Positions 9,577 through 29,030 of a stretch of DNA of 64,000 nucleotides are shown here, in pieces. The position numbers and the translations under genes are program-made. A model generated the notes under the pieces. That model searched no databases. It saw only the letters and a list, made by a program, of their open reading frames with translations, and was not told the DNA's origin. The stretch comes from Marivirga harenae (lineage in GTDB: Bacteria; Bacteroidota; Bacteroidia; Cytophagales; Cyclobacteriaceae), in assembly GCF_030534335.1 (NCBI RefSeq), contig NZ_CP130565.1:1943501-2007500 (forward strand), read 5' to 3'. How positions within the stretch are numbered: the stretch's first letter is position 1; every line of letters starts with the position of its first letter.

Positions 9577-9608
9577 GGTTTACAGCCAATCTTCGATTGT
9601 TAATTTTG
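9577..9608 (+). promoter_or_regulatory. Copy A of the shared 32-bp cis-element
   Basis: Core TTTACAGCC-AATCTTCGA-TTGTTA lies 47 bp before the ATG of the secreted cyanophycinase-like gene. It matches 23 of 32 positions of copy C (27992-28023) and shows the same imperfect dyad (TTTACAG, 11 bp, TTGTTAA). It is the most divergent of the three copies. Confidence 0.6.
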
Positions 9609-9655
9609 GATTCCTAGTTCAATCAAATTACTTATTAACAATCAACTCAATATTT

Positions 9656-11674
9656 ATGATTCTTTCTTCAATATTTAGAAATCTCTGTACTGTATTTTTA
9701 TTTTTCTCTATACTTTCTTTACACGCGCAAGGTAAATTAATGCTTGTTGGTGGAGGAGGAGAAACTGATGGTGGATGGAGTGACACTCCCTATCAATGGA
9801 TGGTTGATAATGCTGTGAATAAAACAATTGGCATAATCAGTTATTCAGATGCTGATAATTGGTTGCCTGATTACTTTGTAGCGCTGGGAGCAGTTGAAGC
9901 AGTAAATATCAAAATCGACTCCAGAGAATTAGCCAATCAAGCAGGAATGTTGGATAGCCTTAATCAATATGATGCTTTGTTCTTTAAAGGTGGTGATCAA
10001 AGTCGGTACTATGATTATTATAAAAATACTGCTGTTCAAAATGCTATTGAAGATATTTATAATCGAGGCGGAGTAATTGGCGGTACTAGTGCTGGAATGG
10101 CTATTTTGTCAGGAGTATTGTTTACTGCTTCCAATGGATCCGCTTATCCTTACGATGCGCTAACAGATATTAACAGCCAATATATGACCTTGGAAGATGA
10201 TTTTCTTCACTTTTACCCCGATTATATTTTTGATACGCATTTTGTAGAAAGAGGGAGAACCTCAAGACTAATTGGGTTCTTGGCGAATTGGTACGAAAAT
10301 CATGGAGAATTGATTAAGGGGATTGGAATTGATGACAGAACAGCTTTTTGTATTGATGAAAATGGAAAGGGAATAGTATATGGTACTGGTGCAGCTTCTA
10401 TCTATCTTCCACAAGATTTTCAAATTCTCGATGGAAAAATTATCAATAGCAATGTGAAAGCAATACAAATAACACATGCTCACTCTTATGACTTAAATGA
10501 AGAGAGGATTTCTGAATGGGATTTAGCAAACCACAGTGAGCCTTCTGTGAATTTACCCTATTATCAGGTTTTTGCATCCTCTGAAACGATTTTGAACAGA
10601 AATAGAGATATGCTAGAAGAAGTAATCTCCACTACAATGTTAGAGGGTAAAATCCTTTTGATAAGTAAGGCTGCAAATTCTAAAGTTTCTTCTTACACAG
10701 AGTTTTTAGAAGAAAACTCCTCTTCTGAGGTAGTTTTCCTAGATATTTCTTCTTCTGAAGAACAAGAAGAACAAATTACTTTACGCAATAAGATTCGGGA
10801 AAGCAGTTTGGTGCTGTTTTTAGAACCGGGAGACATCAATTACTACTTGAATTTCGGCCCTACAGGAGAACTATTAAAATCTCATATGCTGAGAAATGAA
10901 ATCACAAATGTTTTTTTAGGCGATATTGCTAATCAGTTAGGAGTAAGTTACGCTGATAATATTTATCAAGATCCGTTCAATGCCTATTATGATGACTTAG
11001 AATTCAGCGATGGATTAGCGGTGCTTCCAGATTTCAATATTATTACAGAAGCATATGGCCTTGATGATAAGGATTATTATGAGAATATTTCTTCTGCTGT
11101 TGTTGACAGAGTCTTAAGTCAAGATTTGAAGTATGGAGTTTACTTAACCGGAAGTACTTATTTTTCTTATACTATTAATGATGAAAATCAAGCTATAATA
11201 AAAATGGATGGTGAATTGTCCTCGGTTTTAGTGGAAAATTCAGGAACACGCTTTGCCCAAACTGATCAAACAGTTTCAGGAAGTAGCAGTAGAATGCAAT
11301 ACGCATTTGATAGTTTAAACTATCGGATAACGAAAGCCACAGCCTATGAGATTGGTGAGGTTCAAGCTCGAGATCAGGAGGAATATCAGTTTGAAGAGGA
11401 AGAGGTTCTATCTAATATTGAATTAAGTGACAGAGGTATTTACCTGCTACAAAACCCTATTGGTGATAAACTAAAACTTTATAAGGAGTCTTCATATGAT
11501 TTTAATGTTAGTATTTTGTCAGTTGATGGTCGCTCCGTTTTTAATGGTGTTTTGAGAAATAATGGATTTAGCGAATTTAATGTGGGTTATTTACCCAATA
11601 CCCGATATATTCTTATTGTTGAAGATGCGCTTAGCCGAAATAAATATCTATTAAATATTGTAAAAACCAATTAA
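9656..11674 (+). CDS. T9SS-secreted cyanophycinase-family (peptidase S51) protein with a degenerate second S51-like domain
   Basis: Predicted extracellular enzyme that cleaves cyanophycin or another beta-aspartyl polymer. Residues 1-25 are a signal peptide. The first S51 domain (about 27-275) has the nucleophile elbow GGTSAGM with S145, GGDQ with Q115, the DTHFVERGRTSR block with H195 and R199/R201/R204, and GIGIDDRTA, where D227 replaces the glutamate (IDE) usual in cyanophycinases. Residues about 330-470 look like a second copy that has lost the serine elbow (VFLGDIANQ) and histidine (NIITEAYG). Residues about 595-672 form a type A type IX sorting domain. PepE-type dipeptidases use GWSAGS, so the match favours cyanophycinase. 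The D for E change makes activity a testable point. First gene of the module. Confidence 0.85.
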   Translation: MILSSIFRNLCTVFLFFSILSLHAQGKLMLVGGGGETDGGWSDTPYQWMVDNAVNKTIGIISYSDADNWLPDYFVALGAVEAVNIKIDSRELANQAGMLDSLNQYDALFFKGGDQSRYYDYYKNTAVQNAIEDIYNRGGVIGGTSAGMAILSGVLFTASNGSAYPYDALTDINSQYMTLEDDFLHFYPDYIFDTHFVERGRTSRLIGFLANWYENHGELIKGIGIDDRTAFCIDENGKGIVYGTGAASIYLPQDFQILDGKIINSNVKAIQITHAHSYDLNEERISEWDLANHSEPSVNLPYYQVFASSETILNRNRDMLEEVISTTMLEGKILLISKAANSKVSSYTEFLEENSSSEVVFLDISSSEEQEEQITLRNKIRESSLVLFLEPGDINYYLNFGPTGELLKSHMLRNEITNVFLGDIANQLGVSYADNIYQDPFNAYYDDLEFSDGLAVLPDFNIITEAYGLDDKDYYENISSAVVDRVLSQDLKYGVYLTGSTYFSYTINDENQAIIKMDGELSSVLVENSGTRFAQTDQTVSGSSSRMQYAFDSLNYRITKATAYEIGEVQARDQEEYQFEEEEVLSNIELSDRGIYLLQNPIGDKLKLYKESSYDFNVSILSVDGRSVFNGVLRNNGFSEFNVGYLPNTRYILIVEDALSRNKYLLNIVKTN

Positions 11675-11750
11675 TATAATTGCGTTTTACATATCATTTA
11701 ATTAATATTGAAATACTAATATGAAATTCATTCGAACATACATGTCAAGC

Positions 11751-11824
11751 AAGCCCATCCCGGTGCAAGCACGCAAATCATTAACCTTAATGAATTTGCA
11801 GCCTATATTTGATTGTTAGTTCAC
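11751..11824 (+). promoter_or_regulatory. Copy B of the shared cis-element, upstream of susC
   Basis: The main block (11793-11824, core TTTGCAGCC-TATATTTGA-TTGTTAG) is 28/32 identical to copy C. A second block, AAGCCCATCCC (11751-11761), recurs in copy C as AAGCCGATCCC at the same distance of 44 bp. TATATTTG inside the main block is an exact -7 box, so this may be promoter plus operator. The susC ATG is 88 bp downstream. Confidence 0.7.
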
Positions 11825-11911
11825 TCCAATTTTATTATTTCCTTAATTTATTAAGGCATATCTAAATTAACCTTTTAGGTTTTTCTTATATCATTATTTA
11901 ATGTTTTACTT

Positions 11912-14887
11912 ATGAGAACTTTTACTAAAGCACTCGTAGTTTTTCTTGCTACGTGTACGTTTGTATTTAATGTTACTGCCCAATCAATTCTTGTAAAAGG
12001 GACGATAACCTCTAGTGAAGATGGTTTGCCATTACCTGGAGTGAATGTCATGATAAAAGGGAGTGGGAATGGTACCACAACAAATGTTGAAGGTAATTTC
12101 CAACTTGAGGTCGACAAGGAGGCGACACTGATTTTTTCTTTCATCGGCATGAAAACAAAAGAGCTGGCTGTGAATGGCAGAAGTACCCTAGATGTGATTC
12201 TGGATTCTGATGTTTCTCAGCTATCTGAGGTAGTGGTAGTGGGGTACGGGTCAGTAGATCGGAAACTCCTGACAGGATCAGTGTCTCAAACCGAATCAAA
12301 AGAACTTTCCAATACTGTGAATCCAGATTTAAGTTCTGCTTTGCAAGGAAAAGTGGCGGGAGTTCAAATAAATCAGAACTCAGGTACACCAGGTGCCGCT
12401 CTATCCATTCAAGTGCGAGGCCAAAATAGTATTTCTGGAGGTACCCAACCACTATATGTAGTAGATGGTGTTCCGATCTCGTCAGGTAATTTTGGGCAAA
12501 TTGGATACGAAGGCCAAGGGATTAGTGCAATATCTGATTTAAACCCAAATGATATAGAGTCCATCTCGGTATTAAAGGATGCTTCTGCTTCTGCAATTTA
12601 CGGGGCAAGGGGTGCCAATGGAGTGGTTTTAATTACAACCAAAACTGGTGAAAGTGGCAAAACAAAATTTAATGTTGAGTCTTATTACGGCACACAAGAG
12701 ATTTATAAGAGATTGGATCTATTGGATGCAGGTCAATTTAAGCGATATGTAAACGATATTGCCGCAGACGAGGGCGCGGCCCCTCCTTACTCTGACGAGC
12801 AATTGAATGATAATTCAATCAATACAGATTGGCAAGATGCAGTTTTGAGAACAGCACCTATCCAAAATCACCAAATCAGTGCTTCAGGTGGGGGTGATAA
12901 GACTAAATTCTATGCGTCTGCTGCATTATTCGATCAGGAAGGTATTTTGATCGGAACAGACTACAGAAGATATAGTGGTAGATTAAACTTAGATCATAAG
13001 GTCAATGATAAGTTAAATATTGATACAAAACTCAATATTAGCTTCTCAGAAAATAATAGAGTTCCTGGTGATCAGACTATTAATGGTGTCCTACCAAATG
13101 CTATTTCAAAACCTCCGGTACATCCTATTTATGATGAAAACAATAATTATTTAGAGCAAGGGTTTTGGGACAATCCCGTTGCAAATGGAACAGAAACCGA
13201 TAATGTGGCGGAATCTTTTAGGACGCTTTTCAACATCGGTTGGGATTACAGATTCACGGATAATTTGAAATTCAGAAATCAGTGGGGAGTAGATTATTCT
13301 CATTTGATGGAAAGAAGATATGAACCGACTACCACAAGAAGAGGAGCTCAGAGTGGTGGGATTGGTATTAACGCTAATTCAAGGGTGACAAAAGTCATCC
13401 AAAATTCAACCCTCGAGTATAATAAATACATAAAAGATCAACATGATATCACTGCTTTGGTAGGGTCAAGTTTTGAATTGATCAATGATCGGTTTGATTT
13501 TATGCGTGCTAATAATTTCCCCTCTAATGATTTAAGATATATCGCTTCAGCTGGGAACATTGAAACTGCTAGCGCTAGTGGAAGTGAATATGCCATTAAT
13601 TCTTATTTCGGGCGCTTTATGTATGCTTTTGAGGATAAATACATAGTCACTTTAAATTTAAGAGCTGATGGAAGTTCCAATATAGCACCTGCAAATCGAT
13701 ACCAACTATTGCCGGGTATATCTTTAGGTTGGAGATTGATTGAAGAAGGGTTTATGCAAAGCCAGGGTATTTTCAGTGACTTTAAATTAAGATTAGGCTA
13801 CGGGAAATTGGGGAATGACAAAATTGGAAGAGGAAGATATCTGGCATTGTATGGTTCAGGAAATAATTATAATGCAAATCCAGGAATTATACCATCTCAG
13901 ATCCCAAATCCTAACTTGAAATGGGAAGTTACTACCAATTACAATGCAGGCATTGATATTGCATTTCTAGGCGGAAAAATAAATTTCACTACTGATGCTT
14001 ATTACAATATCACCACAGACTTGCTACAGTTTCGCCCTCTCCCAGGCTCTTCTGGATATGGTGGATATGATGAAAACATCGGGGAGATGGAAAACAAAGG
14101 TTTGGAATTTGCAGTAAATGCAAACCTTGTTTCAAATGAGGATTTTCAATGGTCGTTGAATGGAAATCTGTCTCTCAATAGAAATAGAATCCTATCACTT
14201 TATAACGGGCAACCGATCACCAATATAGGTAGAGGAAATAATGCCATAATTGAAGGTGAACCGCTTGGCGTTTTTTACATGTTTGAATCTTTGGGAGTAG
14301 ATCCATCTACCGGAGAATTACTGATGGAAGATGTTAATAATGATGGACGCATTACTGATGCAGATCGACAAATCGTGGCTGATCCAAACCCTGATTTTAT
14401 TGGAGGAATTAGTACTAATCTTAATTACAAAAATTTCGATTTGTCTATAGTAAGCCAATTCAGCTACGGTAATGATATATTTAACGGTACACGTCAGTAT
14501 ACTGAAAATATGACATTGGGTAGTAATGATAATCAGACCACTAGAATCATGAGGCGGTGGAGAGAACCTGGAGATATTACCAATGTCCCAAAGATAAACG
14601 GTAGATTTAATAATGAAATTACCTCTCACTACATTGAAGATGGCTCATTTTTTAGACTAAGAAACATCACCCTAGGCTATAATTTACCTGTAGATCTGAT
14701 TTCAAAGTATAAGCTGACTAAAGTTAGGGTATATGCTAGTGCACAGAATTTATTGACGCTAACATCTTATTCGGGTATGGATCCTGATGTTAATTACTCA
14801 GGTTCTGATGCAACTCGCAAGGGTACTGACTTTTTCACTTTCCCAGTACCGATAATGTATACAGCTGGAATAAATATTTCATTTTAA
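11912..14887 (+). CDS. SusC/RagA-family TonB-dependent outer-membrane transporter
   Basis: This 991-residue outer-membrane barrel imports oligomers with its SusD partner, powered by TonB. A signal peptide (1-24, ending VTAQ) is followed by a carboxypeptidase-regulatory-like domain (about 28-100), a SusC-type junction EVVVVGYG near residue 108, the plug with the conserved PLYVVDGVPI and ASAIYGARGANGVV segments, and a long beta barrel ending in an aromatic residue (INISF). It heads a run of four genes with 6-33 bp gaps. The leader holds a 16-nt palindrome at 11841-11856 and a small hairpin followed by T at 11869-11884 that might attenuate transcription. The context argues for a peptide-like polymer rather than glycan substrate. 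Confidence 0.93.
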   Translation: MRTFTKALVVFLATCTFVFNVTAQSILVKGTITSSEDGLPLPGVNVMIKGSGNGTTTNVEGNFQLEVDKEATLIFSFIGMKTKELAVNGRSTLDVILDSDVSQLSEVVVVGYGSVDRKLLTGSVSQTESKELSNTVNPDLSSALQGKVAGVQINQNSGTPGAALSIQVRGQNSISGGTQPLYVVDGVPISSGNFGQIGYEGQGISAISDLNPNDIESISVLKDASASAIYGARGANGVVLITTKTGESGKTKFNVESYYGTQEIYKRLDLLDAGQFKRYVNDIAADEGAAPPYSDEQLNDNSINTDWQDAVLRTAPIQNHQISASGGGDKTKFYASAALFDQEGILIGTDYRRYSGRLNLDHKVNDKLNIDTKLNISFSENNRVPGDQTINGVLPNAISKPPVHPIYDENNNYLEQGFWDNPVANGTETDNVAESFRTLFNIGWDYRFTDNLKFRNQWGVDYSHLMERRYEPTTTRRGAQSGGIGINANSRVTKVIQNSTLEYNKYIKDQHDITALVGSSFELINDRFDFMRANNFPSNDLRYIASAGNIETASASGSEYAINSYFGRFMYAFEDKYIVTLNLRADGSSNIAPANRYQLLPGISLGWRLIEEGFMQSQGIFSDFKLRLGYGKLGNDKIGRGRYLALYGSGNNYNANPGIIPSQIPNPNLKWEVTTNYNAGIDIAFLGGKINFTTDAYYNITTDLLQFRPLPGSSGYGGYDENIGEMENKGLEFAVNANLVSNEDFQWSLNGNLSLNRNRILSLYNGQPITNIGRGNNAIIEGEPLGVFYMFESLGVDPSTGELLMEDVNNDGRITDADRQIVADPNPDFIGGISTNLNYKNFDLSIVSQFSYGNDIFNGTRQYTENMTLGSNDNQTTRIMRRWREPGDITNVPKINGRFNNEITSHYIEDGSFFRLRNITLGYNLPVDLISKYKLTKVRVYASAQNLLTLTSYSGMDPDVNYSGSDATRKGTDFFTFPVPIMYTAGINISF

Positions 14888-14893
14888 AATTTT

Positions 14894-16243
14894 ATGAAGA
14901 TGAAAAACTTAAAAAACATATTCATTTACTCTTTTATCATTTCACTTCTTTCATGTGAGATTTTAGATGTAGAACCACCTTACGACAGGGTGTTGGCGGA
15001 AAATGCCATTTCTGATAAAAGAGGATTAGATGCGGCCATTAACGGGGTTTATGACGGAATGCAGAGCGGGGCAATTGTGCTGGATTATCTAGTCATTTCT
15101 GATTTAGCTGCTGATAATTTAGAAGCAGTAGGCTCAAAGATCGATTACATTACTATTAATAATAACGATCCCTTCAGCACCAATATATATGTGGAAGCGG
15201 TATGGAATGCCCACTATGATGTGATTAATAGAGCCAATAATATTTTGGATAATATCGGGTCTGTTGATGGAGTTTCTGAAGCTGAAGCTAACCGTGGAGA
15301 GGCTGAAATGCGAACTATCCGAGCTATTTGCTACTTTAATTTGGTCAGAATGTTTGGTGGGGTTCCACTTAGAGAGTCCGCTATAAACGGTGCTTCAGAA
15401 GAAGATATTTTTATCGGGAGAGCATCAGAAGCTGATACTTATCAATTTATTCAGGATGATCTAGAGATTTCGGAAGATTTATTGGAAGGAGCTGGAAGAG
15501 GTAATAGTGTAAGAGTTGATGAACCCACTGTAAAAGCATTATTAGCACGTCTGCATTTATATCAAGAAAATTGGGCGAATGCAGAAGCCTATGCAAAAAG
15601 TGTAATCGATGGTTTTGGGTATGAACTAGTAGAAGATTACACATCTATTTTTGATGAAGCTAATAGTAGTAACGAGATTATATTTCAGATTGATTTTCTT
15701 AATGATGATGATGTAAATACAATAGCTCGTTGGCTTTTGGCAGCAGGTAGATATGAAGCCGCGGCAACTGAAGATGTGTATGATCTTTACGAAAGTCAGG
15801 ATTTAAGAGCCTCAGCTTCAGTGGGGGATGCAGGCGGAGATTTTTTCTGTAATAAGTACACAGGATTACAAAATGATGTGGACAACCTAATTGTCACTCG
15901 CTTATCAGAAATGTATTTGATAGCTGCAGAAGCCATCAACGAGCAGGCCTATGATGCAAATTCCGATGCCTTCGATTTTTTAAATGAAGTAAGAGAAAGA
16001 GCTGGACTAAATGAAATAACTAACCTTGAAGCAACGGATCAAGCATCTTTAAGAGAGGCGATCGCTTTGGAACGAAGAAAAGAATTGGCATTTGAAGGCC
16101 ATAGATGGCATGATTTGGTCAGAACCCATCAAGCTCAAGCTGTTTTGGAAATCAGTAATCCCAATAAACTTTTATTCCCTATTCCCCAATCTGAAATAGA
16201 TACCAATAAACATCCAGAAATGGTTCAGAATGAAGATTACTAA
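14894..16243 (+). CDS. SusD/RagB-family surface lipoprotein
   Basis: Substrate-binding lid of the SusC transporter. The 449-residue protein begins with a lipoprotein signal peptide whose lipobox is SLLSC, followed by EILDVEPP. It contains the SusD-typical segments AEMRTIRAICYFNLVRMFGGVPL near residue 140 (given by position: TPR-like helices), VKALLARLHLY and the C-terminal EAIALERRKELAFEGHRW motif near residue 395. Start at 14894 is 6 bp after the susC stop. SusD proteins bind glycans or peptides; the ligand cannot be read from sequence. Confidence 0.93.
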   Translation: MKMKNLKNIFIYSFIISLLSCEILDVEPPYDRVLAENAISDKRGLDAAINGVYDGMQSGAIVLDYLVISDLAADNLEAVGSKIDYITINNNDPFSTNIYVEAVWNAHYDVINRANNILDNIGSVDGVSEAEANRGEAEMRTIRAICYFNLVRMFGGVPLRESAINGASEEDIFIGRASEADTYQFIQDDLEISEDLLEGAGRGNSVRVDEPTVKALLARLHLYQENWANAEAYAKSVIDGFGYELVEDYTSIFDEANSSNEIIFQIDFLNDDDVNTIARWLLAAGRYEAAATEDVYDLYESQDLRASASVGDAGGDFFCNKYTGLQNDVDNLIVTRLSEMYLIAAEAINEQAYDANSDAFDFLNEVRERAGLNEITNLEATDQASLREAIALERRKELAFEGHRWHDLVRTHQAQAVLEISNPNKLLFPIPQSEIDTNKHPEMVQNEDY

Positions 16244-16276
16244 ATCAATTTTTAAAAATCCTTAAACTAAATAATT

Positions 16277-17464
16277 ATGAAAAATTTATTAAAATATTCT
16301 AAATTATGGGCCTTGTTTATAGGGCTAAGTATTTTGTTTTTCACTTCTTGTGACGAGGGCGAAGAGGACGAACCAACCCCTGAGCCAACAGCCAGTTTTA
16401 CTTTTAGTCCTGATGCCCCGGAAGTAGGACAGGAAATTACTTTTACTAGTACTTCAGAAAATGCAACTTCATTCAGTTGGTCATTTGGTGATGGAGGAAC
16501 GGCTACAGGTGAAAATACCACTCATTCATATGAGTCCGCAGGTGAATTTACTGTTACTTTAGTTGCTTCGGGAGAAGGTGGAAATCTAACAGTGGAAGAA
16601 ACAGTTACTGTCGCAGAACCTGAACCACAGGCTGATCCTGTACAGGTCTATTTTGCAGACAATACTGGAGATGTGTTCACCATGCAGAAAATTTCAGGTT
16701 TAGGATTGGAAACTACTGTTGAAACTGCATTCGAAACTACAGGGTATACCATTCAAGTTTTTTATGATGAAAATAACGATAAAATCTACTACAGTGATGA
16801 TGATAATGGGCAGGTGGTACGAGTTAATCCTGACGGAAGTGGAGAAGAAATTGTGGCGGAAGGAATTGCAGGGCCAAGAGGATTAGCAGTTAATGATGAC
16901 GCAACAAAATTGTTTGTAGCTGATCGAGGAGCAGACGAAATTCTATCTTTTGACTTATCTACTGGAGAAAAAACAGTTTTGTATGATTCAGCTGATTTGG
17001 CAAATGCAATTGTAGATGCTGAATTCCAACCTGCTGCATTTTTACCGGAAGGTCTGACTTTCCATAACGGAGAATTGTTTTTCACATGTGTAGATTTTGA
17101 TGCAGAGACCTTATGGAAAGCGACAGCAGATGGCGCAAGCGTAAGTAGATTGTTAGATTATGGGGAGGCTGGATTTGGGTATGCAGTTATTGTCGATACT
17201 GAAAATGATGTTTTAATCTTTGATGATGCAGATACTAATAATTTACTAGCTGTAAATTATGATGGTTCCGGGATAGAGGAAGTGGTAGCTACAGATGACT
17301 ATACCTATGGTATCGGAATTGATTACGTTACTTCAAAAATCTACTGGTCAACAAGAGATGGCAGCGTAAAAAGAGCCAATAGAGATGGTTCGGAAGTGGA
17401 AACTTTAGTTTCAGCTGATGAGGGGAGAGTAAATAGAGGCTTAGTGATTGTGCCTACTAATTAA
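16277..17464 (+). CDS. PKD-domain lipoprotein with YWTD-like beta-propeller (first of two)
   Basis: A 395-residue lipoprotein with lipobox LFFTSC followed by the very acidic DEGEEDE, which resembles the lipoprotein export signal used in Bacteroidota for surface display. Residues about 38-115 are a PKD domain (SWSFGDGGTA, HSYESAGEFTVTL). From about 125 to the end a propeller of LDL-receptor YWTD-like repeats is seen (IYYSDDDNG, LFVADRGAD, IYWSTRDGSV). It lies 33 bp after SusD and 12 bp before a paralogue. A SusE/F-like binding role is inferred from position; no catalytic motif is seen. Confidence 0.8.
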   Translation: MKNLLKYSKLWALFIGLSILFFTSCDEGEEDEPTPEPTASFTFSPDAPEVGQEITFTSTSENATSFSWSFGDGGTATGENTTHSYESAGEFTVTLVASGEGGNLTVEETVTVAEPEPQADPVQVYFADNTGDVFTMQKISGLGLETTVETAFETTGYTIQVFYDENNDKIYYSDDDNGQVVRVNPDGSGEEIVAEGIAGPRGLAVNDDATKLFVADRGADEILSFDLSTGEKTVLYDSADLANAIVDAEFQPAAFLPEGLTFHNGELFFTCVDFDAETLWKATADGASVSRLLDYGEAGFGYAVIVDTENDVLIFDDADTNNLLAVNYDGSGIEEVVATDDYTYGIGIDYVTSKIYWSTRDGSVKRANRDGSEVETLVSADEGRVNRGLVIVPTN

Positions 17465-17476
17465 AATTTAATTTCT

Positions 17477-18616
17477 ATGCGATATATTTTAATAATTCTT
17501 TTTACTGTATTGCTGGGGGCTTGTGCATCCATAGATGATGATTTTCCTGTGCCCCCAGCAAGCACAGTTTCCAAATTTTCGGTAGAAGTTTTGGATGAAG
17601 ACGAGCGAGAGGTTCAATTTAACAATGAATCTATTATTCCTGAGAATGCAGGTTTAGCCTCTTACACTTGGTCTTTTGGAGATGGAACTACTTCTTCAGA
17701 AGCATCTCCTATCCATACTTATGAACAGTATGGCGAGTACCAGGTGAAGCTAGTAGTATTAACTACAAATAGTGGTGAAATCAAAGAATCATCCCAAGAA
17801 TTAGCATTACTTCAAGCAGTTGATATTGATTTTACTCTCTATTACATGGATACTGATATGTTACAGATTATCGGAGTAGGGGAGGAAAATGTTAATGCTG
17901 ATATAAATGGTTTTGGAAATGGACTTGCCATTGACAGAACAGGCGGTAAGCTTTACTATGCTGACGATGATAATTTATCTTTAAACATCATGAACTTAGA
18001 TGGTTCAAATCCTGAAGTATTGTACGAGGGTTTGACCGGAATAGGTAGCGTAGCGGTTGATTCCGAATCAGGAAAAGTATATTGGACTAACCGAACTGAT
18101 GGGGTAGTTCAAAGAGGTAATCTAGACGGGACAGGATCAGTAGAAACCATAATTGATGGATTATCACTACCAGAAGGTATTGCTGTCCATAATGGTAAAA
18201 TTTATGTATCTGATGTTGATGTACCACCTATAGGAGAGAATATTTATGTAGCCAATAGTAACGGTTCAGGCTTGGAAATCTTCGTGGCCGGAAGTTGGGG
18301 TTATGGTATGGCCATCGACCCTGAGAATGAAAGATTATATTTTGGTGATCAGGCTGTTTATGACGATCCTGAAGATAACAGATTAAAAAGCGTTGATCTG
18401 AATAACAATTCAGATATCGCTACTGTCGCCACAATTGAGCCTATCGGAGCAAATGGAAGTCGGACTTATGGTATAAGCATTAATACGGAAGAAAATAAAG
18501 TCTATTGGACAGATAGGTCCTCAGGTAGAATCAAATCTGCTAATTTAGATGGCTCCGGTGTTGAAACAGTTATAGTGGCAGAGGGATCTCCACGCGGAAT
18601 CGCATTAAGTTTTTAA
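17477..18616 (+). CDS. PKD-domain lipoprotein with YWTD-like beta-propeller (second of two)
   Basis: A 379-residue paralogue of the preceding protein. The lipobox is VLLGAC, followed by ASIDDDF with an acidic stretch that fits a surface export signal. Residues about 32-112 form a PKD domain (YTWSFGDGTTS, HTYEQYGEYQVKL), followed by propeller repeats (LYYADDDN, VYWTNRTDG, IYVSDVD, VYWTDRSSG). It is the last gene of the susC operon, followed by a strong terminator. The pair probably arose by tandem duplication and may bind substrate or calcium at the surface. Confidence 0.8.
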   Translation: MRYILIILFTVLLGACASIDDDFPVPPASTVSKFSVEVLDEDEREVQFNNESIIPENAGLASYTWSFGDGTTSSEASPIHTYEQYGEYQVKLVVLTTNSGEIKESSQELALLQAVDIDFTLYYMDTDMLQIIGVGEENVNADINGFGNGLAIDRTGGKLYYADDDNLSLNIMNLDGSNPEVLYEGLTGIGSVAVDSESGKVYWTNRTDGVVQRGNLDGTGSVETIIDGLSLPEGIAVHNGKIYVSDVDVPPIGENIYVANSNGSGLEIFVAGSWGYGMAIDPENERLYFGDQAVYDDPEDNRLKSVDLNNNSDIATVATIEPIGANGSRTYGISINTEENKVYWTDRSSGRIKSANLDGSGVETVIVAEGSPRGIALSF

Positions 18617-18633
18617 TTCTGTATTTAGGTTAA

Positions 18634-18667
18634 AAGTCGGAGGTTGTATGTGCCTTCGGCTTTTTTT
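18634..18667 (+). terminator. Terminator of the susCD operon
   Basis: A 10-bp stem with two G-U pairs (18634-18643 with 18653-18662), loop of 9 nt, and a T-run continuing to 18667. It separates the susC operon from the lipoprotein cyanophycinase gene. Confidence 0.85.
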
Positions 18668-18764
18668 ATTATTTATTGTATTTGTTAATTACAGAATTGT
18701 ATATTTATTTCTGTCACATAAATTAGAAAATTCTAAAGTTATATTTTAACATCTATTTACTTAA

Positions 18765-19604
18765 ATGAAAAGAATTTTAGTCTTTATTCTCATTACGACA
18801 TTTTTTTCTTGTCAAACCAAACAAGAAGAGAAATTACCTGTCCAAAATACTACGAAAGGAGGCTTATTTATTATTGGTGGAGGTTCTAGACCTGCCGCTA
18901 TGATTGATAAATTGATCGAATTTTCGAATCTAAAAGCAGGCTATGGTTATATTCTTCCTATGGCTTCAGCCGATGACTCAGCCTATTTTTACGCAAATAA
19001 ACAGTTTTCGGAAAAAGGCTTAACGGATTTAAAAGACTATACAAAAGGGGCAAATCAATTATTGGATTCCATTGAAAATGCCTCATTGATCTATATGGCT
19101 GGAGGGGATCAAAGGAGATTAATGGATGTCCTGACTGAAAAGGAACGGAATTCTATAAGAAAGGCCTATAAAAACGGAGCAATTATAGCCGGAACTAGTG
19201 CTGGTGCCGCAGTAATGAGTAAAAAAATGATTACTGGAGATGAAAGGAAGCATCCTGAATATCACGCTACTTTCCGAACCATAGAAAAAGGCAATATTAT
19301 TTTTGATGAAGGTCTAGGTTTGTTGCCAGCAAATATTGTAATTGATCAGCACTTCATTTACAGGAGTCGGTATAACAGACTGCTAACCGCTGTTTTGGAG
19401 TACCCTGACCATATCGGTCTTGGGATAGATGAGTCAACAGCCTTATTTATAAAAAATGATTCAGCTACGGTGATCGGTGAATGGCAAGTTGTTAGCTTTC
19501 AAAATAGAAATCAAGAGTCTGAAAGCAAAAACGGTTTGTTAGGAGCAAGAAATCTTGAATTAAACATTTATCTTCCCAATGATAAATTCAAACTTCCGCA
19601 ATGA
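18765..19604 (+). CDS. Cyanophycinase-family lipoprotein (peptidase S51)
   Basis: Predicted serine exopeptidase releasing beta-Asp-Arg dipeptides from cyanophycin. The 279-residue length matches bacterial CphB. All key features are present: AGGDQ (Q116), AGTSAGAAV with nucleophile S145, IDQHFIYRSRYNR with D194, Q195, H196 and R200/R202/R205, and GLGIDESTA with E223. Residues 1-15 form a lipoprotein signal with C16 in FFSCQ, so the enzyme is membrane-anchored in the periplasm or at the surface, unlike cytoplasmic cyanobacterial CphB. The stop overlaps the start of the permease gene by 4 bp, implying translational coupling. Substrate identity is inferred from conserved binding residues. Confidence 0.88.
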   Translation: MKRILVFILITTFFSCQTKQEEKLPVQNTTKGGLFIIGGGSRPAAMIDKLIEFSNLKAGYGYILPMASADDSAYFYANKQFSEKGLTDLKDYTKGANQLLDSIENASLIYMAGGDQRRLMDVLTEKERNSIRKAYKNGAIIAGTSAGAAVMSKKMITGDERKHPEYHATFRTIEKGNIIFDEGLGLLPANIVIDQHFIYRSRYNRLLTAVLEYPDHIGLGIDESTALFIKNDSATVIGEWQVVSFQNRNQESESKNGLLGARNLELNIYLPNDKFKLPQ

Positions 19605-20971
19605 TAAAAAAGCTTCCGGATACACTAGTCATCATATTTTTCATTTTAATAGTTTTCACTTTACTAACTTGGATAATTCCTGCCGGCAATTATGAGAGAA
19701 TTTTTGTGAACGACAGGGAAGTAATCGATCCGGATACTTTTTCATATTCCGAACAAAACCCACAAGGTTTATTTGATTTATTAAAAGCGCCAATAGAAGG
19801 ATTCCAATCATCTGCTCAAATTATTGCTTTCATTCTATTAGTCGGGGGAGCTTTTGCTATTATCAATAAAACAGGAGCGATTGATTCTTCACTTCAATAT
19901 GTAGTGCAATACAGCCTAAGCTATCCGAAAAGTAAAAAATGGATAATACCCATTATTATTACGCTATTTTCTTTATCAGGAGCCACCTTTGGAATGAGTG
20001 AGGAGGTTTTGGTCTTTGTCATGATCACTATACCTTTAGCTAGAGCATTGAATTATGATGTCTTAGTGGGTGTAGCGATTCCATTTTTAGGTGCAGGTGC
20101 CGGTTTTGCAGGTGCATTTGCCAATCCATTTACAATTGGAGTGGCTCAAGGAATAGCTGAACTAGCGCCATTTAGTGGGATGGAATACAGATTGTTGGTT
20201 TGGCTTATTTTTACCTTTGCAGTGAATATTTTCATTCTGAGGTATTGCTATTTATTAGACACAGGAAAGCGAAAGCATTATTTGACAGATATAAAATTCA
20301 CAACACCATCGGAAAAGACAGACTTTAACGGAAGACAAAAACTGATCCTTATTGCATTTGCGCTCGCACTGCTGTTGTTGATTTATGGCGTCAATAGCTG
20401 GGGCTGGTACATCAATGAGATAGCTGCACTTTTTGTTGGGCTAGGAATTATTGCCGCAATAATTGGTAAGTTGGGTATGCAAAAAACGATTGATGCTATT
20501 ATGGAAGGAGCTCGAGACCTGATGCCAGCCGCTTTGGTTGTAGCGCTATCAAAAGGGATTTTAATCTTGGCAACTGATGGTGATATTATTGATACCATAT
20601 TGCATAGTTTAGCTTCCTTGTCGGAAGGAATTCCAGATTATGCTTCTATTCAAGTCATGTTTTTTGTTCAAAGCGCATTGAACTTCTTTCTACCTTCTGG
20701 TAGCGGACAAGCAGCACTCACAATGCCCATTATGGCGCCATTGAGTGATATTTTAGGAATTGGCAGGCAAACAGCAGTTTTGGCTTTTCAGTTTGGGGAC
20801 GGTATTTCAAACTTGATAATTCCTACTTCAGGAGTTACTATGGGGGTATTGTCTATCGCGAAGATTCCATACGAAAAATGGCTGAAGTGGGCACTTCCAA
20901 TTATTATTGTTTTTTCAGTTTTAGCTATGCTATTACTTTTACCTCCTGTTTTATTTTTTAGTTGGGCATGA
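19601..20971 (+). CDS. YfcC-family inner-membrane permease
   Basis: A polytopic protein of 456 residues with about 11-12 hydrophobic segments, belonging to the YfcC / C4-dicarboxylate anaerobic carrier (DcuC-like) family related to AbgT. Family features include WIIPAGNYER near residue 25, the loop LSGATFGMSEEVL, FANPFTIGVAQ and the C-terminal FLPSGSGQAALTMPIMAPL. Relatives move dicarboxylates, amino acids or small peptides. The ATGA overlap with the upstream cyanophycinase gene strongly suggests that the permease imports its product, either beta-Asp-Arg dipeptide or free arginine/aspartate. This is inference from context. Confidence 0.85.
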   Translation: MIKKLPDTLVIIFFILIVFTLLTWIIPAGNYERIFVNDREVIDPDTFSYSEQNPQGLFDLLKAPIEGFQSSAQIIAFILLVGGAFAIINKTGAIDSSLQYVVQYSLSYPKSKKWIIPIIITLFSLSGATFGMSEEVLVFVMITIPLARALNYDVLVGVAIPFLGAGAGFAGAFANPFTIGVAQGIAELAPFSGMEYRLLVWLIFTFAVNIFILRYCYLLDTGKRKHYLTDIKFTTPSEKTDFNGRQKLILIAFALALLLLIYGVNSWGWYINEIAALFVGLGIIAAIIGKLGMQKTIDAIMEGARDLMPAALVVALSKGILILATDGDIIDTILHSLASLSEGIPDYASIQVMFFVQSALNFFLPSGSGQAALTMPIMAPLSDILGIGRQTAVLAFQFGDGISNLIIPTSGVTMGVLSIAKIPYEKWLKWALPIIIVFSVLAMLLLLPPVLFFSWA

Positions 20972-21002
20972 TTTGTATATTGTGGAATATAATAATTGAA
21001 AA

Positions 21003-21458
21003 ATGCCACTTAATAAATTTAATCCTAAGTATCAAGGAGTTCAAACCAAAAGCACCAGCAAGCAGGAACAGAAATTCCATCAATTAATGGATGCTCTGGA
21101 GGAGCAAGAAATTCCCAAATCAGTAGTAAACTTAATTAACGAAGAAGTCGATAAGGTAAATCAAGCAGATTCGAAAAAATTATTAACGGCTCAGTTGGCA
21201 AAATCATTTCGAACGATATTAAAGATTGCAGAGAAAGAAATGAATTTAGTTGCTAAAAATCATTACAAAAATATGTGGTTGGCAATAGGGATGAGCGCAT
21301 TTGGAATCCCTTTAGGTATAGCGTTTGGAGCTTCATTAAATAACTACGGTCTCATGGCGGTAGGTATACCTATTGGTTTTGCAATTGGAATTGCAATTGG
21401 TTCTAAAAAAGATAAAGAGGCTGAAGAACAGGGCAAGCAACTTGATATTGAGATATAG
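21003..21458 (+). CDS. Hypothetical protein with C-terminal glycine-rich membrane segments
   Basis: A 151-residue protein. The first 95 residues are hydrophilic and helical (DALEEQEIPKSVVNLINEEV), followed by two hydrophobic segments rich in glycine and alanine (about 98-115 and 120-138, IGFAIGIAIGS) that look like glycine-zipper membrane helices, and an acidic tail. It lies 31 bp after the permease gene and could be co-transcribed, but shows no link to transport. I do not recognise a named family. Confidence 0.7.
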   Translation: MPLNKFNPKYQGVQTKSTSKQEQKFHQLMDALEEQEIPKSVVNLINEEVDKVNQADSKKLLTAQLAKSFRTILKIAEKEMNLVAKNHYKNMWLAIGMSAFGIPLGIAFGASLNNYGLMAVGIPIGFAIGIAIGSKKDKEAEEQGKQLDIEI

Positions 21459-21509
21459 AATTTTCATCTCAATTTCTAAATTATTCCAACAACTTCCCAT
21501 CTTTGTGAT

Positions 21510-22322
21510 ATGAATAAAGATAATTCAGCACCTATAGGTATTTTCGATTCTGGTATTGGCGGACTAACTGTGGCGCATAAAGTCAAAGAACTTATGCCTA
21601 ATGAAAGTATGGTCTACTTTGGCGATATTGCGCATTTACCTTATGGTGATAAATCAGCGGCAGCTATTCAGGCCTACAGCATTAAAGTAACGGATGTATT
21701 GTTACAGCAAGGATGTAAGTTAATATTGATAGCTTGTAATTCAGCTTCCTCAGCAGCCTTCGAATTGGTTAAGGAGTATGTAGGTTCCAAAGCTAAAGTT
21801 TTCAATGTAATTGATCCTGTGGTTGAGCATGTTGGACAAAACTACAGCAAGCAAAAAGTCGGACTGATCGGTACGAAACAAACAGTAAATTCAAACGCTT
21901 ATGAGTTGAAGTTAAAGCAACTTAACCCCGATGTTGAATTAAAGAGTTTGGCCACTCCACTTTTAGTACCTATGATAGAAGAAGGGTTTTTTGAAAATAG
22001 AATTAGTCATGATATAATTGAAGCATATCTTCATCACGATGAATTAAAGCATATCGAAGCTTTAATATTGGGATGTACGCATTATCCTCTAATCAAAAAT
22101 GAAATTGATAAATTTTACAACGGAGGAGTTGATATTTTGGATTCAGCCAGCATCGTTGCCAAGCGATTGGAATACTTTTTAAAAGAGAATGCTTTGCTCT
22201 CAACTAAAAAAGATAGGAAAGATAGATTTTTGGTTTCTGATATTACGGCATCTTTTGAGGCGTCTGCTAAAATATTCTTCCATGACGAAGTGCATTTAGA
22301 GAAGTATCCTATTTGGGATTAA
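21510..22322 (+). CDS. murI: Glutamate racemase
   Basis: Makes D-glutamate for peptidoglycan. The 270-residue protein has the family start IGIFDSGIGGLTV, FGDIAHLPYG, and the two catalytic cysteines in IACNSASS (near residue 75) and LGCTHYPL (near residue 187). Length is typical. It converges with, and overlaps by 14 bp, the minus-strand histidine kinase gene. Confidence 0.95.
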   Translation: MNKDNSAPIGIFDSGIGGLTVAHKVKELMPNESMVYFGDIAHLPYGDKSAAAIQAYSIKVTDVLLQQGCKLILIACNSASSAAFELVKEYVGSKAKVFNVIDPVVEHVGQNYSKQKVGLIGTKQTVNSNAYELKLKQLNPDVELKSLATPLLVPMIEEGFFENRISHDIIEAYLHHDELKHIEALILGCTHYPLIKNEIDKFYNGGVDILDSASIVAKRLEYFLKENALLSTKKDRKDRFLVSDITASFEASAKIFFHDEVHLEKYPIWD

Positions 22323-24285: not shown

Positions 24286-24465
24286 TTCTATACTTAGTTT
24301 GAGTCTTGGCTTGAGGCAGTGAGCATCAATAATATAAATTCAAAAATAGGATTATTTTTAAACTTAACCTGTACCAATTAGTAAATTTCATCCCAATTAA
24401 ACCATAGTTCTATCGAATATCTTACTTGGATTATTTTTAGATATGGTCTTAATCAAAGAAAAAGA

Positions 24466-24496
24466 TTGAACATCAATTATAATAAACTTAACTTTG
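24466..24496 (+). promoter_or_regulatory. Promoter of the PurF-type gene
   Basis: TTG (24466-24468), 20 bp, TAACTTTG (24489-24496): a full match to the Bacteroidota consensus, predicting transcription from about 24500 and a 15-nt leader. Confidence 0.7.
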
Positions 24497-24514
24497 CACT
24501 TTAAGTAAAAAATC

Positions 24515-26389: not shown

Positions 26390-26533
26390 AATTTTCTAGT
26401 TGGCAAGGTTACAGGTTGTCAAGTTGGCTAACTGACCACTTTTAAACTTTAAACTCACGAACCTGCTAACATAGTTTTTCCATTCTCGAAATACTTTCCT
26501 ATTTTTAATCACCGCAAATTGACTAAGGAAGGC

Positions 26534-27853
26534 ATGATTAAGAACTCATACGTATTTTTCATTTCACTTACAGCTGCCTTGGGTGGCTTTTTGTTTGGTT
26601 TTGATACGGCTGTAATATCCGGAGCAGAGCAAGCTATTCAAGAAATATGGGAGCTTTCTGACTGGATGCATGGCTTTTCTATTGCTATTGCACTTTACGG
26701 GACAGTAATAGGTGCATTAGCTGCGGGTTATCCCGCTAACCGTTTTGGAAGAAAGCCTATGTTGTTATTAATTGGCGTTCTTTATACGGTTTCAGCTTTA
26801 GGTTCAGCTTTAGCACCTGATGTGAATACTTTTATGTTCTTTCGTTTTTTGGGCGGCTTGGGAGTTGGGGCTTCATCTGTAATTGCCCCGATGTATATTA
26901 GTGAAATTGCTCCTGCCGGTAAAAGGGGAATGTTAGTGGCCTTATTTCAATTCAATGTTGTATTGGGAATCTTGATTGCCTATTTCTCTAATTATTTAAT
27001 TGCATTGGCAGATTTGGAAAGTAGCTGGAGATGGATGTTGGGGGTAGAAATAATTCCTGCCATATTATATTCATTATTGAGCATCCGCTTGCCGAGAAGC
27101 CCTAGATGGCTAATTGCCAACCGTAATGATTATGAGGATGCCAGAATGGTTTTAACCAAGACCGATCCTGAAAATGTAGATCATATAATCAAAAACATTG
27201 AAAAGGAGAAAGCGAAAATGGAAAAAAGGGAAGGCTTTTTCGCACTTTTCAAAAAGCAATATTTCAAATTTACTTCAATGGCTATTTTAATTGCTTTTTT
27301 TAATCAACTTTCCGGTATCAATGCCATTATATATTTCGCCCCAAGAATATTTGAATCTGCAGGTATAAGTACAGAAAATGGATTGCTGTCCACCATGGGA
27401 ATCGGGTTCATTAATGTGATTGCCACCATGATCGGTCTTTATTTGATTGATAGGATGGGTAGGAAATTCTTACTCTATTTGGGTTCCGTAGGGTATTTAA
27501 TTTCTTTAAGTTTGATGGCAATTAGTTTTAGCGGGGACGTAATTCCTTCTAACCTACTTCCCTTCTTTGTATTTCTATTTATTGCTGCGCATGCAGTGGG
27601 AAGTGGCTCTATTATTTGGGCCTTTATTGCTGAAATCTTTCCTAATAAGCTGAGAGCACATGGACAATCCATTGGAAGCTTTACCCATTGGCTATTTGCT
27701 GCCGTCATTGCAAACGTTTTTCCCTTTTTCGCAAATGCATTTGGTTCATCGTCCATATTCTGGTTTTTTGCTATAATGATGTTTATACAGCTTTTATGGA
27801 CTATTTTTGTGATGCCGGAGACCAAAGGACGAGAACTGGAAGAAATAAAATAG
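26534..27853 (+). CDS. MFS sugar porter family transporter
   Basis: A 12-helix major facilitator of the sugar porter family (XylE/GalP/AraE type), 439 residues. Signatures are GGFLFGFDTAVISGA near the start, RFGRKPML in loop 2-3, PRSPRWLI, the helix 7 motif NQLSGINAI, and the final PETKGRELEEI. It probably imports a hexose or pentose by proton symport. The ATG at 26534 with AAGGAAGG just upstream is preferred over the in-frame TTG at 26519. No sugar enzyme genes are adjacent. Confidence 0.9.
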   Translation: MIKNSYVFFISLTAALGGFLFGFDTAVISGAEQAIQEIWELSDWMHGFSIAIALYGTVIGALAAGYPANRFGRKPMLLLIGVLYTVSALGSALAPDVNTFMFFRFLGGLGVGASSVIAPMYISEIAPAGKRGMLVALFQFNVVLGILIAYFSNYLIALADLESSWRWMLGVEIIPAILYSLLSIRLPRSPRWLIANRNDYEDARMVLTKTDPENVDHIIKNIEKEKAKMEKREGFFALFKKQYFKFTSMAILIAFFNQLSGINAIIYFAPRIFESAGISTENGLLSTMGIGFINVIATMIGLYLIDRMGRKFLLYLGSVGYLISLSLMAISFSGDVIPSNLLPFFVFLFIAAHAVGSGSIIWAFIAEIFPNKLRAHGQSIGSFTHWLFAAVIANVFPFFANAFGSSSIFWFFAIMMFIQLLWTIFVMPETKGRELEEIK

Positions 27854-27949
27854 TAGCCATAAATAAAAATGATTTGGCTTTCATCACGGAAAATATTATT
27901 ATTGAATGTGGATAATTTAAAATATTTGATCATTTCTGATTCTACTCAA

Positions 27950-28023
27950 AAGCCGATCCCTCAATTGGAAGTAAAAAAATTTGAGCTACAGAATTTACAG
28001 CCGATATTTGACTGTTAGTTTAC
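27950..28023 (+). promoter_or_regulatory. Copy C of the shared cis-element, upstream of the isoaspartyl peptidase gene
   Basis: The main block (27992-28023, core TTTACAGCC-GATATTTGA-CTGTTAG) is 28/32 identical to copy B before susC. The accessory block AAGCCGATCCC (27950-27960) has the same 44-bp offset as in B. A TTTG at 27980-27983 lies 19 bp before GATATTTG, a one-mismatch -7 box. The dyad TTTACAG, 11 bp, CTGTTAG spaces its half-sites 18 bp centre to centre. The ATG at 28107 is 84 bp downstream. Confidence 0.7.
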
Positions 28024-28106
28024 ACATTTCTTCTTAGTACCGGGAGCATTACCACAGCAGCTCCTAAATATTGGAATTTAAGTTCTTAACAACATCACTT
28101 TTAAAA

Positions 28107-29030
28107 ATGAAGAAATTTGTATTGGCTATCCACGGAGGAGCAGGCACTATTCTCAAAAAAAACATGACCACTGACAAAGAAAATGCTTATCATGAGGCAC
28201 TTAGAGAAGCATTAGAGGCTGGGAATGATGTATTAAATAAAAAAGGAACTTCCATTGAAGCGGTTTCTGTTGCCGTTGCTATGATGGAAGATAGTCCACT
28301 TTTCAATGCTGGTAAAGGATCAGTTTATTCTAATAGCGGAAAAAATGAAATGGAAGCATCCATCATGGAAGGTGGTGATTTGAGAGCGGGAGCCATTGCC
28401 GGAGTAAAAAATATTAAAAACCCAATTCAGCTAGCTAAATCAATACTCTTTGATGATGATTTTGTATATCTCATTGGAGAAGGTGCGGAAGAGTATGCCG
28501 CGAAGAGGAAACTGGAAAAAGCAGCAGATGAGTATTTTCATACGCAATTTAGAAAAGATCAATGGTTGGCGGCAAAAGGAGAAGGCAAAGTACTGTTGGA
28601 TCATGATGCCGATAAAAAGTTTGGAACGGTGGGTGCAGTGGCCTTGGATATATATGGGAATCTGGCAGCGGCTACTTCAACAGGGGGCTTGACTAATAAG
28701 AAGTATGGCAGAATTGGAGACAGCTCAGTTATAGGTAGTGGAACTTATGCAAACAACAACACATGTGCTATATCATGCACCGGATATGGAGAATTTTTCC
28801 TAAGAGCCATAGTTGCTTACGATGTTTCTTGCTTGATGGAGTATAAAGGCCTAAGCTTAAAAGAAGCTTGTGATCAAGTAGTGATGAAAAAGTTAGTTGA
28901 AATGAAAGGGGAGGGTGGTCTTATTGCTTTGAGTTCTCACGGTGATTTTGAATTTAGTTTCAATTCTGAAGGAATGTATAGAGGAGTTGTTGGTTCTGAA
29001 TTAAGTTTAAAAACTTACATTTATAAATAG
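28107..29030 (+). CDS. iaaA: Plant-type isoaspartyl peptidase / L-asparaginase (Ntn hydrolase)
   Basis: Cleaves beta-aspartyl dipeptides, including in principle beta-Asp-Arg from cyanophycin, and L-asparagine. The 307-residue precursor has the family start AIHGGAGTI, SPLFNAGKGSV, and the autoprocessing site FGTVGAVAL with nucleophile T174, followed by GRIGDSSVIG and the substrate loop CTGYGEFFLR. There is no signal peptide, so it acts in the cytoplasm. I chose ATG 28107 because the family begins there; an in-frame TTG at 28071 would add 12 residues. The upstream cis-element is shared with the cyanophycinase and susC genes, which supports a role in the same pathway. Confidence 0.92.
   Translation: MKKFVLAIHGGAGTILKKNMTTDKENAYHEALREALEAGNDVLNKKGTSIEAVSVAVAMMEDSPLFNAGKGSVYSNSGKNEMEASIMEGGDLRAGAIAGVKNIKNPIQLAKSILFDDDFVYLIGEGAEEYAAKRKLEKAADEYFHTQFRKDQWLAAKGEGKVLLDHDADKKFGTVGAVALDIYGNLAAATSTGGLTNKKYGRIGDSSVIGSGTYANNNTCAISCTGYGEFFLRAIVAYDVSCLMEYKGLSLKEACDQVVMKKLVEMKGEGGLIALSSHGDFEFSFNSEGMYRGVVGSELSLKTYIYK

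Follow-up and report, generated by a model that had tools for sequence, protein, structure and literature searches.

Cyanophycin is a nitrogen store of cyanobacteria and other bacteria made of arginine and aspartate, and a transport complex for it is said, in an abstract of 2017, to be homologous to polysaccharide utilization loci. Here we describe a locus of Marivirga harenae, lying in a window of 64,000 nucleotides (contig NZ_CP130565.1, positions 1,943,501 to 2,007,500 of the forward strand; all coordinates below refer to this whole stretch), in which two proteins of the cyanophycinase family S51 are encoded together with a SusCD-type outer-membrane transporter. We consider it, with a probability of roughly 0.8, a scavenging system for external cyanophycin, either multi-arginyl-poly-aspartate or the lysine-bearing variant.

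Cyanophycin-scavenging loci of Bacteroidota have already been published (PMC10206079, citing Ben Hania 2017; the PMC articles are cited throughout from excerpts). Cyanophycinase and isoaspartyl dipeptidase genes were clustered there in 45 of the 52 genomes having both, without the cyanophycin synthetase CphA1, L21-Spi-D4 and Flammeovirga pacifica were pointed to as scavengers, and Firmicutes and Bacteroidota were said to have isoaspartyl dipeptidases that are still undiscovered (PMC10206079).

Gene content and the two S51 proteins

Eight genes run from 9656 to 21458, all on the + strand, with successive gaps of 237, 6, 33, 12, 148, -4 and 31 bases. The genes named in an earlier note on this DNA (S51, SusC, SusD, two propeller lipoproteins, the second S51, the permease and the isoaspartyl peptidase IaaA) were all recovered on the + strand and at the starts given there, using the list of open reading frames (ORFs), Pfam and NCBIfam.

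9656..11674, + strand: S51_T9SS, exported S51-family protein with an S51 domain, a probable second, degenerate S51-like domain and a C-terminal signal domain of the type IX secretion system (T9SS) kind (PF03575)
11912..14887, + strand: SusC-type TonB-dependent outer-membrane transporter (TIGR04056, 887 bits; TIGR04057)
14894..16243, + strand: SusD-type surface lipoprotein, lid of SusC (PF07980, PF14322)
16277..17464, + strand: lipoprotein with PKD domain and YWTD-type propeller, proposed surface polymer binder (PF18911, PF08450)
17477..18616, + strand: second PKD/propeller lipoprotein, paralogue of the 16277 product (PF18911, PF00058)
18632..18664, + strand: terminator-like stem-loop with a T run, between both halves of the locus (terminator scan)
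18765..19604, + strand: S51_lipo, cyanophycinase-family lipoprotein, probably periplasmic (TIGR02069, 132.9 bits)
19601..20971, + strand: inner-membrane permease of the DcuC/YfcC family, proposed beta-aspartyl dipeptide importer (PF03606, 334 bits)
21003..21458, + strand: small protein with hydrophobic stretches by eye, without Pfam or NCBIfam match
28107..29030, + strand: IaaA, plant-type isoaspartyl peptidase without signal peptide (PF01112, PRK10226)

The lipoprotein encoded at 18765 passes the cyanophycinase cut-off of TIGR02069 (126.6 bits) and matches the solved cyanophycinases 3en0 (5.8e-23), 7uqv and 7uqw. As the earlier note had read it, the protein keeps the cyanophycinase residues: Q116, S145, D194, Q195, H196, R200, R202, R205 and E223 are aligned, and are invariant in 20 rows. 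The reference list with its roles, that is, a catalytic Ser-His-Glu and the substrate residues Gln, Asp, Gln and three Arg, is what we take to be the cyanophycinase set. Two of its members, His174 and Arg178, are named for cyanophycinase substrate binding in the literature (PMC12661447). The 18765 product is best described as a cyanophycinase-family enzyme with a predicted release of beta-Asp-Arg.

The first protein of the run, encoded at 9656, is more distant; it exceeds the Pfam cut-off for Peptidase_S51 (33.2 vs 23.9 bits), misses that of TIGR02069 (96.7 vs 126.6 bits) and is classed here as an S51 relative only. Its model (predicted local distance difference test, pLDDT, 80.5; built on 7 sequences) has cyanophycinase or pseudo-CphB chains as its nine top Foldseek matches (7uqv, 7uqw, 3en0; TMt 0.76-0.82), and Ser, His and three Arg are invariant in a 7-row alignment. 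Among 30 full-length relatives, some of them near-identical, our patterns picked up the Ser motif in 22 proteins, that of His and three Arg in 24 and the final one in 25; in the second of these Gln is always replaced by Thr or Ser, and in 24 of the 25 cases of the third Glu is replaced by Asp. Residues about 290-590 are likely, not certainly, a second, degenerate S51-like domain: hhalign compared residues 290-590 (window 10523-11425) with the S51 profile at a probability of 79% (E 1.6e-5), and with the protein's own first half at 8%.

On secretion of this protein by the T9SS, claimed in the earlier note, structure and domain score diverge: the modelled tail resembles the solved T9SS signal domains 8gl6_D and 8gl8_D, and its sequence stays under the PF18962 cut-off (14.9 vs 27 bits). 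PF18962 matches at E ≤ 1 were found in 4 of 7 members of the family, 9656 counted, the best at 5.3e-10. In two relatives (L038, L049) the T9SS-type S51 gene is broken, and in L049 susD is broken as well; some strains may do without the surface enzyme, or these may be assembly errors.

One S51 member, MccG, confers resistance to microcin C-like peptidyl-nucleotide antibiotics (PMC9239234), a precedent for reading the two S51 enzymes as immunity proteins. We dropped this reading as wholly improbable, since both proteins carry export signals and are nearest to cyanophycinases, and the ORFs scanned showed no antibiotic cluster.

Regarding the surface lipoproteins, the 16277 and 17477 products read CDEGEEDE and CASIDDDF past the signal peptide. 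Acidic residues following the lipobox are a mark of surface export; by our own heuristic (lipobox plus at least 2 acidic residues after it), this mark is present in 37 of 44 propeller lipoproteins and 39 of 51 SusD proteins, and in 6 of 36 S51_lipo proteins with a lipobox, while an ordinary signal peptide was assigned to 81 of the 127 S51_lipo proteins and none to 10. The model of the 16277 product (pLDDT 89.1, 14 sequences) consists of a PKD domain and a YWTD propeller, its closest Foldseek matches being LRP6/LDLR-type propellers and nidogen, which bind proteins and peptides in animals; this lipoprotein would be a candidate for binding the polymer.

Linkage of S51 and SusCD in relatives

The earlier note had held that its proposal should be given up if the S51 and SusCD genes were unlinked in relatives; SusC and SusD in fact lie upstream of S51 in 15 of 18 same-family genomes. 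This sample comprised 196 genomes, of which 70 had an S51 match at E ≤ 0.001 and 20, our own included, one above 190 bits; genome G003 (two pieces on short contigs) is not counted among the 20, and the loci compared are 18 of the other 19, G002 lying outside. As for the remaining three genomes, the parts are split over two contigs in G112, and G118 and G171 are without SusC and SusD. The order S51-SusC-SusD-propellers-S51-(YfcC)-(IaaA) is repeated in relatives. Locus L071 has SusD, two propellers, S51 and YfcC together with pieces of SusC. The small ORF at 21003 was recovered only in L033 among 20 loci compared.

Moreover, 395 genomes were sampled across the phylum; 96 had a match at E ≤ 1e-20 and 46 scored above 200 bits, and the regions of 45 of these (our own excluded) were analyzed with 15 control loci. 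A scan of named genomes added at least 80 loci, many of them short or other loci without SusC/SusD near S51; among those listed, SusC and SusD stand near S51 in Flavobacterium, Pedobacter, Sphingobacterium, Mucilaginibacter, Fulvivirga, Gelidibacter and Flammeovirga. After removal of 10 near-identical loci from 137, the exported S51 clade comprised 127 loci. Neighbours within 9 genes were SusD (54), SusC (53), YfcC (42), IaaA (32), propeller (27), S51_T9SS (26), PepT-like M20 (23), plain TonB receptor (21) and RpiR regulator (21). Counted over whole loci, SusD was found in 55 of 127 clade loci vs 1 of 22 other S51 loci (Fisher p 2.5e-4) and the propeller in 30 vs none (p 0.008), the 22 being 15 chosen controls plus 7 placed by score, one of which (L172) is a broken clade member. 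Of 65 well-flanked loci, 49 had SusD or a plain TonB receptor.

When the SusD proteins of other S51 loci were scored against that of M. harenae, 24 of 53 exceeded the best of the 7 other SusD of its own genome (161 bits) and one tied. The SusD of Pedobacter and Sphingobacterium S51 loci scored under this paralogue, which suggests that SusCD pairs may have been recruited to S51 loci more than once. With 8 SusD genes in this genome, a single contig of 4.37 Mb, our own arithmetic puts proximity within 10 kb by chance at 3-4%.

SusCD pairs usually import glycans, and a gene for a sugar porter of the major facilitator superfamily (MFS) lies at 26519, so one could see here a SusCD pair for a glycan or another peptide with the S51 genes as chance neighbours. 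The order kept over several families and the ties of partly unrelated SusCD pairs to the S51 clade speak against such chance, and the 20 surrounding ORFs scanned with Pfam hold no glycoside hydrolase; we regard this explanation as very improbable. A polysaccharide utilization locus proper has carbohydrate-active enzymes in the run, of which none was found among the 20 ORFs; on this result and the conserved S51 partners we dropped the glycan version. The statement in the earlier note that the region lacks any carbohydrate enzyme holds in this respect, with the reservation that the sugar-porter gene (26519-27853, between a PurF-like gene and IaaA) adjoins IaaA; the porter gene gives no sign of belonging to the system.

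Genomes outside the class of M. harenae show a second architecture (L161:4793-19901; similar in L162, L168, L179, L182 and L184), composed of a PepT-like M20 peptidase, S51, YfcC, an RpiR regulator, a plain TonB receptor, a large partner protein, a PorV-like protein (by eye) and a T9SS-type S51. Two further loci, L110 and L114, come from bins labelled Verrucomicrobia, outside Bacteroidota, and pair S51 with an IaaA-like gene bearing a signal-like N-terminus.

Permease, terminal peptidase and substrate

The permease gene overlaps that of S51_lipo by 4 bp, ATGA, as the earlier note stated and as is seen directly in the DNA. Its product belongs to DcuC (PF03606); the best NCBIfam match, YfcC (NF008611, labelled a putative basic amino acid antiporter), reaches 363 bits, below the cut-off of 500, so it is treated as a DcuC-family relative only, and a search for solved relatives gave none at E ≤ 0.1. 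YfcC follows immediately 3' of S51_lipo in 36 of 43 copies (42 loci), and the permease could import the beta-aspartyl dipeptide.

The 28107 product contains an Asparaginase_2 domain (PF01112) and has as best NCBIfam match the beta-aspartyl-peptidase PRK10226 (334 bits, below the cut-off of 567). Its best PDB match is 2zak, residue 174 lying in the alignment where solved beta chains begin; with this domain and a beta subunit starting at the nucleophile Thr, it has what defines an IaaA. The start is taken at ATG 28107, the listed ORF beginning at TTG 28071. IaaA, counted in the system by the earlier note, lies nearby; the gene stands outside the operon, 7.1 kb past the permease with five genes between, one of them on the opposite strand. 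These are the small ORF at 21003, an Asp/Glu racemase-family gene (MurI, in our reading), the opposite-strand sensor kinase, a glutamine-amidotransferase gene (read by us as PurF-like) and the sugar-porter gene. This distance exceeds the 5 kb limit used in PMC10206079. IaaA is no more than 3 genes away in L034, L037, L041, L043, L049, L054 and L072, and in a tree the IaaA of M. harenae clusters with the locus-linked IaaA of relatives. Upstream, the locus may be divided into two transcripts at the stem-loop of 18632-18664; promoter and terminator scans of the region found sites no more frequent than in shuffles (for terminator-like sites, 7 vs 7.6 expected).

Terminal peptidases near S51 differ with the permease: cytoplasmic ones were counted 31 times with YfcC and 8 times without, exported ones never with YfcC and 25 times without. 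The count takes peptidases up to 3 genes from S51, plus the IaaA of M. harenae at +7; L110 and L114 were entered as exported by hand, L079 (IadA and M28) as cytoplasmic and L164 as exported, whereas L147 and L109 (unclear IaaA-like genes) and L159 (seven genes away) were omitted. Of the four exported M20 genes, those of L040 and L050 are on the opposite strand. Inspection by eye revealed no clear signal peptide in the PepT-like enzymes, some of whose starts are unsure. The exported or cytoplasmic state switches only twice in an IaaA tree made by a quick method, and the S51 tree yielded 5 independent pairs with support, of which on average 3.8 agreed, 0 opposed and 1.2 did not differ (sign test p 0.125). 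With so few independent changes, the pattern is a consistent hint and no proof that YfcC may act as the dipeptide carrier.

A wider scheme, to which we give somewhat less than even odds, would be a system modular by compartment: where YfcC is present, one of three unrelated cytoplasmic enzymes, IaaA, IadA or a PepT-like M20 that is not known to have such a role, would split the dipeptide, and in loci lacking YfcC an IaaA, M20 or M28 with a signal could do so outside. YfcC would then be a beta-aspartyl dipeptide importer, PepT-like M20 a new isoaspartyl dipeptidase, and the arrangement containing it a second architecture beside the SusCD one.

Neighbours fitting the breakdown of beta-Asp-Arg were found among the 127 loci, namely IaaA in the 32 given above, IadA in 4, arginase in 4, ornithine aminotransferase in 9 and a DctA/GltP-type symporter in 6; the families were named from one representative each, that of arginase lying just below its cut-off (222.8 vs 227.6 bits). 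Together they point to beta-Asp-Arg. Arginase and ornithine aminotransferase (both on the opposite strand) with an AsnC-type regulator stand near S51 in L074, L077, L082 and L104 (L104:7003-9924), which are of Flavobacterium type; four additional loci have the aminotransferase, arginase being absent. A penicillin-acylase family gene lies downstream in these Flavobacterium-type loci. The symporter is downstream in its 6 loci, 4 of these having an exported IaaA. Elsewhere in the M. harenae genome are an arginase-family protein (163 bits) and an ornithine aminotransferase (621 bits, above cut-off).

A search of this genome for cyanophycin synthetase (CphA) gave none above cut-off, only partial matches, the best at 114 vs 850 bits; the polymer should therefore come from outside, and the reading as a storage polymer of the cell's own was dropped on the same result. 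CphA was above cut-off in 8 of the 65 genomes carrying the S51 clade (20 same-family plus 45 of the phylum sample): G177, G415, G334, G318, G273, G330, G240 and G559. All 8 have a CphA gene within 3 kb of a different S51, away from the clade gene; G334 has a second synthetase gene without S51 nearby, and in G528 a synthetase match stays below cut-off.

Several observations weigh against a dedicated cyanophycin system. The 9656 protein, under the cyanophycinase cut-off and with Thr/Ser for Gln and mostly Asp for Glu, may differ in activity; G118 and G171 have S51_lipo without SusCD, with GGSQ replacing GGDQ; 16 of the 65 well-flanked loci have neither SusD nor TonB receptor; YfcC shows no significant excess (43 of 127 vs 5 of 22 other S51 loci, p 0.46); and the M. 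harenae genome has two further PF01112 genes. The linkage counts are inflated by shared ancestry and by seeds that were SusCD-linked in 18 of 20 cases, and linkage alone is no proof of substrate. IaaA enzymes, moreover, take many beta-aspartyl dipeptides even when clustered with cyanophycin genes (PMC10206079), and the S51 superfamily includes aspartyl dipeptidases besides MccG (PMC9239234), so that the locus might be a general scavenger, taking up isoaspartyl peptides or beta-aspartyl dipeptides such as those from aged proteins. We find this unlikely: 18765 is over the cyanophycinase cut-off with its three aligned arginines kept, Flavobacterium and Flammeovirga loci have arginase and/or ornithine aminotransferase close to S51, and two S51 proteins with surface lipoproteins fit a polymer better than dipeptides.

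Returning to cyanophycin scavenging, it is from the observed gene content, conserved linkage, active-site residues, localisation signals and lack of CphA above cut-off that we infer the identity of the polymer and every catalytic and transport step. The two propeller lipoproteins and SusD would hold the polymer at the cell surface, where the T9SS-type S51 (9656) would trim it; SusC would bring the pieces across the outer membrane with TonB energy, and in the periplasm S51_lipo (18765) would reduce them to dipeptides of beta-Asp-Arg. Import of the dipeptide would fall to the YfcC-family permease, whose translation is coupled to that of S51_lipo, cytoplasmic IaaA would split it into Asp and Arg, and arginase and ornithine aminotransferase, encoded elsewhere, would process arginine further. 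The order of steps proposed in the earlier note agrees with the localisation signals and neighbour genes.

Comparison with known systems

The locus has the features of a SusCD uptake locus, that is, adjacent susC and susD, a lipoprotein SusD, extra surface lipoproteins (position by heuristic) and degrading enzymes in the run, as well as those of a scavenging-type cyanophycin utilization locus, with cyanophycinase clustered with an isoaspartyl dipeptidase and a transporter and no CphA above cut-off in the genome. CphB of Synechocystis PCC 6803 (3en0, 7uqw) shares fold and active-site residues with the proteins described here; it is intracellular (PMC10206079), whereas both S51 proteins of M. 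harenae carry export signals.

Salinivirga cyanobacteriivorans L21-Spi-D4 likewise has a pair of S51 proteins, one of them plain, the other carrying a Por secretion domain (PMC6243061), although it has IadA where the Marivirga locus has IaaA. Flammeovirga pacifica WPAGA1 is named for a probable cyanophycin-scavenging cluster (PMC10206079), and locus L072 of F. pacifica, which may be the cluster meant there, holds S51_T9SS, SusC, SusD, propeller, S51_lipo, IaaA and YfcC in one run, followed by a further S51-like protein and ornithine aminotransferase; it differs in having one propeller gene instead of two and IaaA within the run. In Citromicrobium sp. JLT1363, which does not belong to Bacteroidota, a TonB-dependent receptor adjoins cyanophycinase, and in 2012 it was suggested that TonB transporters might take cyanophycin as a substrate; the excerpt makes no mention of SusD (PMC3400609).

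RagAB of Porphyromonas gingivalis is also a SusCD-type pair, tied to oligopeptide uptake (as cited in PMC9723704). Its substrate is ordinary peptides, and SusCD beyond glycans was thus already known; with the PUL-like (polysaccharide utilization locus-like) uptake of cyanophycin, it precedes the extension of the SusCD concept that the earlier note had claimed as new. We know of no S51 enzymes for RagAB.

The excerpts of published cyanophycin-locus accounts compared, Ben Hania 2017 itself standing outside the comparison, contain neither a surface propeller pair nor a tandem-domain T9SS-type S51, nor a match between permease and peptidase compartment or a PepT-like M20 replacing IaaA. For the isoaspartyl dipeptidase sought, the PepT-like M20 and the M20/M28 neighbours of exported type offer concrete candidates, though mostly in scavenging and not storage genomes. 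Uptake of cyanophycin by scavengers is little tested, and a full parts list would allow tests of branched-polypeptide uptake via SusCD. The Marivirga locus is, in summary, a better resolved variant of an already published idea, with a parts list that exceeds the accounts compared.

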